From contig NZ_CP127161.1 of the NCBI RefSeq assembly GCF_030263895.1, positions 310,001 to 374,000 on the forward strand: 64,000 bases of DNA. The letters are read 5' to 3'. A program made the translations under genes and the position numbers. The notes under the pieces are model-generated. The model had not been told where the DNA came from, made no database searches, and saw only the letters and a program-made list of their open reading frames with translations. This DNA comes from Proteiniborus sp. MB09-C3. GTDB lineage: Bacteria; Bacillota; Clostridia; Tissierellales; Proteiniboraceae. This document shows positions 34,614-38,587 of this stretch, in pieces (the first letter of the stretch is position 1; every line of letters begins with the position of its first letter).

Positions 34614-34799
34614 TTATTTAAGATATTTTTCTAGACAAGACCTGCAAATACATGCTTTCCCTTTTTTATCATCAGGAATCAAATCCAATACATGTTTGGG
34701 AAACTTCACAGTCTCACACCAGCATGACCCTTGACCATGCTGACAATTATTGTCCTGTCCACAAAGAGGACAAATTTTTTCCGTTTCTTTTAAATTCAC
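34614..34799 (-). CDS. Cysteine-rich CWC family small protein
   Basis: A 61-residue protein with the CWC signature: CPLCGQDNNCQ, then GSCWCETVKFP and ACICRSCLEKYL, ten cysteines that probably bind zinc. The family is widespread and of unknown function. The GTG at 34799 is chosen because AAGGG lies 8 nt upstream; a GTG at 34808 is too close to it. It follows the truncated endonuclease gene but has no obvious link to it. Confidence 0.8.
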   Translation of the reverse strand: MNLKETEKICPLCGQDNNCQHGQGSCWCETVKFPKHVLDLIPDDKKGKACICRSCLEKYLK

Positions 34800-34921
34800 T
34801 AATATCACCCTTCTTATATTTTTAATTCTATTGCATTAGCATATTCCACAATCGTTTATGCCCATAATAGTCCTATTTCCCTTGAAAATTACAGATATAT
34901 TTTAAGTTATAAACATAAGAC

Positions 34922-35698
34922 TTAAAATGCTCTAGCGTCATCTTTTGAAAGAAGCTTCTTAATTTCTTCCATGTAATGATTATTTAACCTCAGTCTCCAG
35001 CCATAAAAACTTATGTAATTTGTTTCTTCAAAATATCTTCTATTATTGTCAATATAATCATCTAGACTATTAGCATTCTCATATTTTTTCAATAAGCTAT
35101 TCAAGTTAAACTTATTATTCCTATAATTAACTAAATCATTTACAAAATTGTCTATTTCGTCATATCTTTTTAATGTCATTACAAAGCATCCAAATTCATG
35201 CTCTGTTATACCATTTGAGCTCCCTGTCTTTTCTTCTAACCTATTCAAAAAATGGAGTGTCCCAATATATGGCTTTATATTTGCTCCATTTGCAGTAATT
35301 TTCCACTTTGACAAACCTATCGTTAATGCGTCCTTTAAACTATATTCTCCACTTATCAATTTCTTTCCTGATTTGCTTATTTTAATTTTATCTGATTCTA
35401 GTTTAACAAATCCTAGTTTTTTTAATGGATTAAATGATACTCTTCCCCTCATAGACTTGCCTATATATCTTGCTTTATCATAAATATCTTTAGCTTCTTC
35501 GTAAGATATTTGTTCGTTTTTCAATGCAGGATGAACAATGTCAGGTCTATACTTTTTTTCTTTAATCAGTAGTATTTGATACTCATTCTGTGTTGCTTCA
35601 TCCCAATATTGACCTTCTAATTGACTAATAACTTCTAGAAAACCTAGTATCCTATTAGGATTTCTAAGCGTAGTTGATACATTCCATATTTTTCTCAT
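34922..35698 (-). CDS. AlwI/BstNBI-family endonuclease, DNA-recognition half only
   Basis: A 258-residue protein starting MRKIWNVSTTLRNPNRILGF and LEVISQLEGQYWDEATQ, the typical opening of AlwI/MlyI/BstNBI-type type IIS endonucleases. It continues collinearly through the family's helical recognition domains (MRGRVSFNPLKKLGFVKLES, RRYFEETNYISFYGWRLRLN). Family members are about 500-600 residues with the nuclease domain in the C-terminal third; here the frame ends at DDARAF and nothing coding-like follows before the next gene. The protein therefore probably binds the target but cannot cut. It lies 440 nt downstream of two adenine methyltransferase genes. It could be an inactivated restriction enzyme or a retained DNA-binding protein. 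Confidence 0.72.
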   Translation of the reverse strand: MRKIWNVSTTLRNPNRILGFLEVISQLEGQYWDEATQNEYQILLIKEKKYRPDIVHPALKNEQISYEEAKDIYDKARYIGKSMRGRVSFNPLKKLGFVKLESDKIKISKSGKKLISGEYSLKDALTIGLSKWKITANGANIKPYIGTLHFLNRLEEKTGSSNGITEHEFGCFVMTLKRYDEIDNFVNDLVNYRNNKFNLNSLLKKYENANSLDDYIDNNRRYFEETNYISFYGWRLRLNNHYMEEIKKLLSKDDARAF

Positions 35699-36106
35699 CG
35701 CTATACCCCCTAAACATTTTTCCCTTGTAACCCCATAAAATTTCTATATTCATTTTTTGTCGTTAGTATAATTTCTAGAAAAAGATATAGAATTTAAATT
35801 CTATATCTGATACACTGCCTCCTTTCTTTAAAAATAATCTTCTTAGTTTGCATTCCAATTAGCAAAAAAGTCTGCAGCAAAATATTTTCTTTTGCTAAAA
35901 TTCTTTGTTTTATATATTAAACCCTATCTATTTGCTGTATACTTAAAGTCCACCCCTATTCCCAAACATTCCATATGTTCATTATACACTATTCATATAA
36001 TAATGACTTCTATGGAAGTATTAATAGATTGAGGAAGCCTTTACTGAAACCCACTTTATAGAAGGTTAAAATTAAGGAAAATCAAGATTTCCCCATGGGA
36101 TGCAAA
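35699..36106. other. Intergenic region between methyltransferase and endonuclease-half genes
   Basis: No gene visible. It holds the 26-bp palindrome listed separately and must hold the promoter of the endonuclease-half gene; no convincing -35/-10 pair was picked. Confidence 0.35.
35783..35808. promoter_or_regulatory. Perfect 26-bp palindrome upstream of the endonuclease-half gene
   Basis: AGATATAGAATTT followed directly by AAATTCTATATCT, 85 nt upstream of the start at 35698. No T run for termination; a likely protein-binding site, perhaps a restriction-modification control operator. Confidence 0.55.
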
Positions 36107-36132
36107 AAATCCCCTAATGTCATAAGGGATTT
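36107..36132 (-). terminator. Intrinsic terminator after the methyltransferase genes
   Basis: AAATCCC-12 nt-GGGATTT with a T run on the minus strand, 5 nt past the methyltransferase stop. Confidence 0.7.
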
Positions 36133-36136
36133 ATAA

Positions 36137-37066
36137 TCAATAATTTGTTATCAACACTTCAACTGTTTTAGCTTTTTTATTATCTTCTTTTTTCTGATAA
36201 TTAGAATTATTGTAATTGAAATTCAAATAGTGAATATTATATTTTTTACTCCATTCTTTCAAAATACAATTAGATTTCCCATCATGTTCTAGAACATTTG
36301 ATAAGGCAAACTTTATTTTATTACTATTTATATAGTCAAGAATTTCTAGTAAAAGCTTCTCTTTTTCCTCATTCCAGCCGTCTTGCTCTGTGTATGTAGC
36401 AGTAGTAATTAGATATGGCGGATCAGCATAAATAAATGCATCTTTTCTGCAAAATTTACTAAAATCTATTTCTCCAAAATCATTTAACTTAAATAATATG
36501 TCTTTTTCTTTTATTCTATCTATAAAACTGGATAGTTTTTTTTGGAGATTACTATTAAAATCTCTTTTCCCTACAGGTATATTGCACTCGCCTTTTTTAT
36601 TGAATCTTATTTGATTATTGAAGGAATAGATTACAATTGTATAGAAAAGAATGTCGTAATAAGAATTATCTTCATCCCTATTATTATAGTCATTCCTCAT
36701 TTTTAAAAATCTGTCTTTATTGTATTTTCCTAAACCACTAGAGCTATTACAATCATAATATTCATAGCCATTTAGATCAGAATTTGAAAGCTCATATTCA
36801 TCAATTACGTTATAAATTGTATTAAAAATATAGTCCTTTTCAAGCCTTTTTAAAGTATCAAATAAGCTTATCAATTGTTTTTGATTATCTATAGAAATAA
36901 CACTGTTAGCATTTACATTAACTCCTACATTATTTCCCCCTGAAAATAAGTCAATAAAAGTATCTATACTATTAGGGAATATAGGTATTAACTGTTTTAG
37001 CAATTTATATTTTCCACCAGTATAATTTAATGGTGATTTAATCAAATCATTGAAATTTTGATTCAA
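36137..37066 (-). CDS. DNA adenine methyltransferase, Dam/D12 class (M1)
   Basis: A 309-residue N6-adenine methyltransferase. SAM-binding motifs are SPLNYTGGKYKLLKQL (motif X region, about residues 11-26) and TFIDLFSGGNNVG (motif I); the catalytic DPPY is in YADPPYLITT (about 214). It starts with a TTG at 37066, 7 nt after AAGGAG. With the second methyltransferase encoded 15 nt upstream it would modify the two strands of an asymmetric site, as type IIS systems need. The partner endonuclease gene downstream looks truncated. Confidence 0.9.
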   Translation of the reverse strand: MNQNFNDLIKSPLNYTGGKYKLLKQLIPIFPNSIDTFIDLFSGGNNVGVNVNANSVISIDNQKQLISLFDTLKRLEKDYIFNTIYNVIDEYELSNSDLNGYEYYDCNSSSGLGKYNKDRFLKMRNDYNNRDEDNSYYDILFYTIVIYSFNNQIRFNKKGECNIPVGKRDFNSNLQKKLSSFIDRIKEKDILFKLNDFGEIDFSKFCRKDAFIYADPPYLITTATYTEQDGWNEEKEKLLLEILDYINSNKIKFALSNVLEHDGKSNCILKEWSKKYNIHYLNFNYNNSNYQKKEDNKKAKTVEVLITNY

Positions 37067-37081
37067 GAAAATTCTCCTTTC

Positions 37082-38317
37082 TTACTTGCACTTGCACAAA
37101 AATAGTCTTTCTCGATGGTCTTGTAAATCAGTTTTTCCAGTAGTAAAATATTGATGCTCTGTGTCAAACACCTTTACCTCCCCTCTACTTTTTAATGAGT
37201 CAATAATTTCTTCGTCACTAATTTTAGCATTAGATCTACCATTCCCTTTTTTAGCCATATTGTTATAGGAAACTAAAATATATTTTGAATTAACATTCGC
37301 AACTAGATCATCAAAAGCTTGAGGAGCTTTTATAGTACAGTATTTGCTCTTTATATGACTTCTATCTATCATCTTCTTAGCTACACCTACTACCTCTGGC
37401 TTCTCCCACTTTGCTATATTTTCTAATAGATGATATGCATCAGAATACTGCCTTGAATTATAGGGAGTATCTATGTATACTATATCACTGTGAATTTTCC
37501 TCACGAGCCTGTTCGCATCCTCTCTATATATTTCATTGCTTTTATTAATATCATTATTTATTGCTGGTACTTGAAGCTTTAGAGACTGAGTAGTATCTAG
37601 ATTTCGCCTAAATGCATCGTAATGACCACAAGTATTTGCTACCTTATCCATAGCATATAGTAAGGATGTAATCAAAATTGCCTTTTCTCTAAAAGTAAGT
37701 GTAGGGGAAATCAACTCTATTTCTTCTCTTATTGCTCCAATTTTCCTTGCATTTTCCGCAGTGAAATATTTATCTCCAAAATTTCTAGAAACATAGTTTT
37801 CTTTTTTAGCTGATATATTATTGAATTCATTTATGTATCTATGTATTTTGTTAGAATTATATTCTTCATTGCTAAGCCAAGTATAATAAGCTAAATAATT
37901 CGAATATAAAATATCATTTACAATAACCTTAACTCCTTTAGAGTTAAAGGCATAACTTACTATTCCTGTACCTCCAAAGATATCCGCAAATACCCTGATA
38001 TCTTTGCATTCATTAGCAACAATATCCTTTATAAAAGGTATTAATTTATACTTACTTCCTAGATATCTTCTATTCTTTATATGTAATTTCTCATTTTTCG
38101 AAATTCTAACTTTTTTTATTCTATTTGTTTTACTTTTATTTTCCTTTACTTGTTCTATTTCATCCATTATATTTTCTGTCCATAATCTCCAGCCCCTCCA
38201 ATCTCTTTCTGGATCAGATATTAAGCCATTTTTAGTCCAGTTGTATAATGTTTGTCTTGTTATGTCATATTTCTCTAAAACATAAGAAGTCTTATAAGTT
38301 TTCGGTACAATGTCCAT
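37082..38317 (-). CDS. DNA adenine methyltransferase, D12 class, with N-terminal helix-turn-helix (M2)
   Basis: A 411-residue protein. Residues 5-55 form a MerR-like helix-turn-helix (TSYVLEKYDITRQTLYNWTK). A D12 methyltransferase follows with RRYLGSKYKLIPFI (about 72), FADIFGGTGIVSYAF (about 102) and the DPPY variant DTPY in VYIDTPYNSRQYSDAY (about 280). The ATG at 38317 has GAGGAG 8 nt upstream; the ORF extends 28 codons further but without a ribosome binding site. The DNA-binding head could help specificity or repress the operon, as some methyltransferases do. First gene of the M2-M1 operon. Confidence 0.88.
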   Translation of the reverse strand: MDIVPKTYKTSYVLEKYDITRQTLYNWTKNGLISDPERDWRGWRLWTENIMDEIEQVKENKSKTNRIKKVRISKNEKLHIKNRRYLGSKYKLIPFIKDIVANECKDIRVFADIFGGTGIVSYAFNSKGVKVIVNDILYSNYLAYYTWLSNEEYNSNKIHRYINEFNNISAKKENYVSRNFGDKYFTAENARKIGAIREEIELISPTLTFREKAILITSLLYAMDKVANTCGHYDAFRRNLDTTQSLKLQVPAINNDINKSNEIYREDANRLVRKIHSDIVYIDTPYNSRQYSDAYHLLENIAKWEKPEVVGVAKKMIDRSHIKSKYCTIKAPQAFDDLVANVNSKYILVSYNNMAKKGNGRSNAKISDEEIIDSLKSRGEVKVFDTEHQYFTTGKTDLQDHRERLFLCKCK

Positions 38318-38587
38318 GTATTTCTCTCCTCTATAGAAATATGCATCTAATGCATCTTTTTGATTTTTACTATTTAATTCTAACATAGATTTCTTATGCA
38401 CTCAATATATTAGCTAGAAGCAAAGCTATTTTTAACAGGGCCTATATTCTTTCAAATTTATTTGATTTATGTTTTCTTATAATAGCAAAACCTTTAATCC
38501 CGTTCTTGACATTCTAATTTATTGATTATCTCCACATAAGCTATCTCTAGCATTTTCTTCTTCCAACCTCAATCATAAAAAAACAGC
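38318..38587. other. Intergenic region upstream of the methyltransferase operon
   Basis: No gene recognised. It should contain the promoter of the methyltransferase operon, but I see no consensus -35/-10 pair. Confidence 0.3.

Follow-up and report, generated by a model that had tools for sequence, protein, structure and literature searches.

In the window, that is, the whole 64,000-nucleotide stretch of Proteiniborus sp. MB09-C3 DNA analysed here, two adenine methyltransferase genes (M1 and M2) are accompanied by a gene for a shortened restriction endonuclease (R). The gene content agreed with the original prediction, while the upstream end that it gave, 38317, is an internal ATG of M1, for which a GTG start at 38401 is possible. 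The features of the locus are the following:

34809 to 34921, no strand: interval of 113 bp between the R stop and the next gene, with no nuclease-domain remnant in any frame
34922 to 35698, minus strand: R remnant, 258 amino acids, the recognition half of an AlwI/Nt.BspD6I-type type IIS endonuclease without the nuclease half
35699 to 36136, no strand: gap between M2 and R, 438 bp, non-coding (15 bp in the intact relative G502)
35783 to 35808, no strand: 26-bp perfect palindrome AGATATAGAATTTAAATTCTATATCT upstream of R, followed by TTTTC on the minus strand; terminator or operator
36097 to 36132 (approximate), minus strand: terminator-like hairpin followed by a T-run just past the M2 stop (fold of 36085-36140, z -1.56, weak)
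36137 to 37066, minus strand: M2, D12/Dam-family adenine-N6 methyltransferase of 309 amino acids with FSGG and DPPY motifs
37082 to 38401, minus strand: M1, D12 adenine-N6 methyltransferase of 439 amino acids from the GTG (411 from the ATG at 38317) with a DTPY motif

The R remnant is encoded by an intact frame of 258 codons with a start and a purine-rich stretch upstream, in accordance with the undamaged frame described originally. Residues 94-253 matched positions 2-187 of the 441-position Pfam profile RE_AlwI (PF09491; E 1.9e-19), and the protein belongs to this family by its N-terminal half (70.4 bits against a cut-off of 23.1). Residues 2-199 likewise matched positions 2-226 of 624 in the PADLOC nicking-endonuclease model. 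According to phmmer, the best solved relative by sequence is Nt.BspD6I (E 1e-6), an enzyme of 604 residues in which an N-terminal recognition domain is followed by a linker and a C-terminal catalytic domain (PMC8533099). An AlphaFold model calculated with eight recognition halves as input (pLDDT 85.6, pTM 0.83) superposed over residues 1-258 on Nt.BspD6I 3-280 (Z 22.4, rmsd 2.4 A, 220 residues aligned), with further matches to the recognition domain of BpuJI (Z 16.3) and to FokI (Z 9.0). The last residue, 258, corresponds to residue 280 of Nt.BspD6I, and the nuclease domain that the large subunit itself carries is absent. The model ends in a winged helix, whose final helix spans residues 240-252, and the stop lies just past it. 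Since the fold comparison covers the whole recognition half and then stops, the claim that the endonuclease consists of that half alone is correct, and profile coverage and predicted fold together confirm the R remnant as a complete AlwI/Nt.BspD6I-type recognition half and no more. The R remnant retains 40 of the 52 positions that do not vary among four full-length relatives, and the same measure gave 40/57 and 40/51 for the full-length R proteins of L011 and L003; by this count the divergence of the recognition half is no greater than in intact relatives.

The two D12 adenine methyltransferases beside R reproduce the two-methyltransferase arrangement of AlwI-like systems. In AlwI itself, two methyltransferases with GGATC as their site, each acting on a different strand, are fused into a single chain (PMC4081073), and the fused-methyltransferase model PDLC03292 was matched in its N-terminal half by M1 and in its C-terminal half by M2. 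Motif counts in the window pointed to no particular site for the pair. Positions invariant in five relatives were retained at 148 of 184 sites in M1 and at 107 of 128 in M2, and the departures are to be expected because in each set the window sequence is the outgroup. Judged from their sequences, M1 and M2 are complete, as had been proposed, with their motifs kept, and they match the separate or fused methyltransferase pairs of AlwI-like systems. The GTG start of M1 would add an N-terminal MerR-like helix-turn-helix, although the match (residues 36-98) is weak, at 19.5 bits against a cut-off of 28.2; the M1 N-terminus is alignable in the fused enzyme of G466 and different in G502. Among relatives (window 38100-38401, L036, L039 and L040), the N-termini of M1 vary, with helix-turn-helix-like extensions or, in L039, a small separate helix-turn-helix gene. 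A role of such M1-linked parts in self-regulation of the system is possible.

The missing half of the endonuclease was sought both around the locus and in the 3.88-Mb genome of the strain. The nuclease half of PF09491 was not found in this genome, where the Pfam search matched the N-terminal half alone, and the C-terminal nuclease half of the homologue L018 used as a query gave no match. A profile (A3) built from five nuclease-half sequences also returned nothing from the genome (G000), whereas it recovered G502 at E 9.3e-135, the R protein of G502 being one row of the profile, and, as an independent control, the distant G252 at E 2e-8. In all six frames of the window, a profile search run without filters revealed no nuclease-half remnant (leave-one-out control E 2e-71). 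These searches cover AlwI-type homologues of the nuclease half. The scanned genes around the locus encode a cysteine-rich CWC protein, a metallo-beta-lactamase-fold protein, an ABC transporter, a sigma factor, a chemoreceptor, an acetyltransferase and others, and none of them is a nuclease. The statement that the nuclease domain is neither fused to R nor encoded next to it was thus borne out, and extends by homology to the rest of the genome. A sequencing frameshift that joins R to a nuclease domain was rejected, as was any simple frameshift, because the nuclease-half sequence itself is absent from every frame of the window. As no catalytic half is encoded, cutting of unmethylated DNA by R is not expected.

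The non-coding flanks of R were also analysed. The gap of 438 bp between M2 and R contained no open reading frame and no Rfam match at E<=1, and it was rejected as a gene, a known RNA or a mobile-element remnant, its one match in the genome being 70 bp long at 77% identity. That match, between window positions 36007-36075 and G000:C1:1259325-1259392, is possibly a short dispersed repeat. Because this spacing holds two terminator-like hairpins with T-runs, R is probably transcribed in a unit of its own, separate from M1-M2, although both hairpins score weakly against shuffled sequences (z -1.8 and -1.6). The palindrome AGATATAGAATTTAAATTCTATATCT is a single copy that does not recur in the window. 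On the other side of R, the next gene (34614-34808) encodes the CWC protein of 64 amino acids, which is also present in the same-genus genome G002 at 80% DNA identity and in a different context. Its presence elsewhere makes this gene look like older chromosome, and the boundary between the restriction-modification locus and older chromosomal DNA therefore probably falls within 34809-34921. In the two genomes of the same genus that were compared for an empty site, the gene order around the locus differs from that of the window.

Homologues of the R remnant are rare. Among 150 relatives they were found in G128 (621 amino acids) and G100 (520), and among 398 genomes of the phylum in G720 (594, 43% identity in the hit) and G751 (600); the closest homologues (L018, L019, L011 and L003) are of full length, at 594-621 amino acids. 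A family of short homologues of about 260 residues was found neither in the 150 relatives, the 391 genomes of the class and the 398 of the phylum nor among plasmids, phages and viral contigs; in the last three, searches with the R remnant gave no relative, short or long. The 258-residue form was found in no second genome, and an intact version of the locus in no related strain. Two candidates were discarded: L060, a possible second short R, runs off the end of its contig, and L005 is an unrelated small protein in which a peptide matches by chance. In the class, PF09491 was matched in 13 of the 391 genomes, that of the window included, and the R protein of G502 (601 amino acids) was among the four best matches to the R remnant. 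Relatives of M2 with 50-56% identity occur in G475, G502, G252, G508, G466 and G196, the first five of which have AlwI-type R genes.

Eleven of the 13 PF09491 loci could be assessed, after removal of G442, where a contig end cuts R, and of G283, whose recognition domain is joined to an HNH nuclease. In this one class survey R was broken in four of the 11, namely the window, G508, G383 and G165, and of full length in G495, G066, G475, G466, G502, G252 and probably G429. In G383 (L006, 1273-3274), a frameshift splits the AlwI-type R between two frames, and in G165 (L012, 1399-2637) about 243 N-terminal residues are missing and the upstream open reading frame reads like an HNH protein. At the G283 locus (L016, 886-2136), one protein combines the AlwI-type recognition domain with an HNH_2 nuclease, beside an apparent 5-methylcytosine methyltransferase gene, which indicates that the recognition half is modular and that its nuclease partners can change.

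Taken together, the sequence data and the predicted fold make it probable that the locus is an eroded AlwI-like type IIS M1-M2-R system, which would methylate and be unable to cut, with an R remnant that is foldable and possibly DNA-binding. R would formerly have been full length, an ancestor that we infer because no related strain holds an intact locus, and some 300 C-terminal codons would have been lost through a deletion or rearrangement with its end beside the gene at 34614-34808; with a deletion or insertion edge inside the 113 bp, no trace of the nuclease half would be left. M1 and M2 would act on the two strands of a short asymmetric site, one enzyme per strand, and the cell would no longer restrict there. 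The remnant is probably still able to fold and may be a non-cutting binder of the unmethylated site; such binding would most likely be left over and not the reason for the persistence of the gene. Deletion is favoured because the close relatives are all full length, no remnant is present in the 113 bp, and other broken R genes occur with their methyltransferases kept. Of the 'recent C-terminal deletion' proposed originally, the deletion is therefore favoured and its recency unsupported; the retained invariant positions look alike whether conserved before or after the loss and cannot date it. If this reading of decay is right, the locus is a clean case of a type IIS system that, broken between two domains, is reduced to methylation.

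The conservation of the recognition half, which shows no excess decay relative to L011 and L003, counts against erosion, and so does the position of the stop: ending past the last winged helix, it would leave a foldable protein, a cut that random breakage would rarely give. Both observations fit an R remnant selected as a non-cutting DNA-binder on the M1/M2 site, a regulator or methylation competitor with its own promoter past the two terminator-like hairpins. This explanation, which we regard as a minor possibility, is kept in consideration because the recognition half retains its invariant residues as intact relatives do; the complete fold in a confident model, the undamaged frame with a start and purine-rich upstream sequence, and a gap whose hairpins and 26-bp palindrome suggest a separate transcription unit agree with it. 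There are also precedents, as the BpuJI recognition domain was crystallised on its cognate DNA without the nuclease half (2vla), and the BREX protein BrxA, which has a related fold, binds DNA on its own and shows that such folds can work alone in defence (PMC9240713). However, the hairpins are weak, the palindrome lacks a second copy in the window, and the short form occurs in no second genome, so that there is no sign of a conserved 258-residue family. It is likewise rather unlikely that the recognition domain of a type IIS enzyme has been retained alone as a site-specific, methylation-sensitive DNA-binder, for instance a regulator, which reads the marks set by the methyltransferases that were once its partners; if the short form was selected, it would represent a natural path by which a restriction enzyme becomes a DNA-binding regulator, and would supply a ready-made non-cutting recognition domain.

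A split enzyme, in which the recognition half would recruit a nuclease from another locus much as small subunits are recruited by the large ones in BspD6I and BtsI, is very unlikely. Type IIS/IIT heterodimers whose small catalytic subunit is a separate chain do exist, but the large subunit of the known heterodimers keeps its own nuclease domain (PMC4081073); and while the HNH fusion of G283 indicates that partners are changeable, the genes surrounding the locus are not nucleases and homology searches by Pfam, single sequence and profile revealed no AlwI-type nuclease half, stand-alone or otherwise, in the genome. The nickase scaffold for a separate AlwI-type nuclease, suggested in the original prediction, is disfavoured by the same empty profile search, which readily detects an intact relative. 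Hardly any weight is given to an assembly error, in which about 900 bp of a full-length R would have been dropped. The analysis rests on a single assembly of the strain, but this is one contig of 3.88 Mb, the missing part is in no other frame of the window nor elsewhere in the genome, and the gap upstream of R indicates a rearranged locus in any case. Whether the remnant is decaying or selected, the strain is best treated as methylating, and probably not restricting, at the M1/M2 site.

In comparison with known systems, the likeness to BREX lies in BrxA, by published description a stand-alone DNA-binding protein whose fold is like that of type IIS recognition domains (PMC9240713); BrxA is a core BREX protein, and the neighbours examined at the window locus include no BREX genes. 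With Nt.BspD6I/BstNBI, the large subunit of a type IIS nicking enzyme (GAGTC), all 258 residues superpose on the recognition domain, whereas the window R lacks the linker and catalytic domain (residues ~281-604) and the small subunit was not found by homology search. The AlwI system (GGATC) shares the RE_AlwI N-terminal half and the fused-methyltransferase model, and differs in that M1 and M2 are separate genes in the window and R lacks the nuclease half. The operon of G502 (L036), the nearest relative with a complete set and from the same GTDB class, has the identical M1-M2-R order, with an M2 of 307 amino acids (56% identical), a homologous M1 of 426 and 34% identity in the recognition half of R; it differs in its R of 601 amino acids, starting ~15 bp past M2, and in another N-terminal extension of M1. 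In G508 (L039, 1-1295), M1-M2 are also intact (M2 50%), and R stops at 392 of ~700 amino acids near the recognition/cleavage boundary; this R is of another subgroup, and its IS-like break, a transposase-like C-terminus at the contig edge whose IS identity a plasmid search did not confirm, takes the last helix of the recognition half. The truncation is thus confirmed in a known kind of system, with methylation without restriction as the most likely state, and the window locus looks like one of several broken relatives and not a new kind of system.
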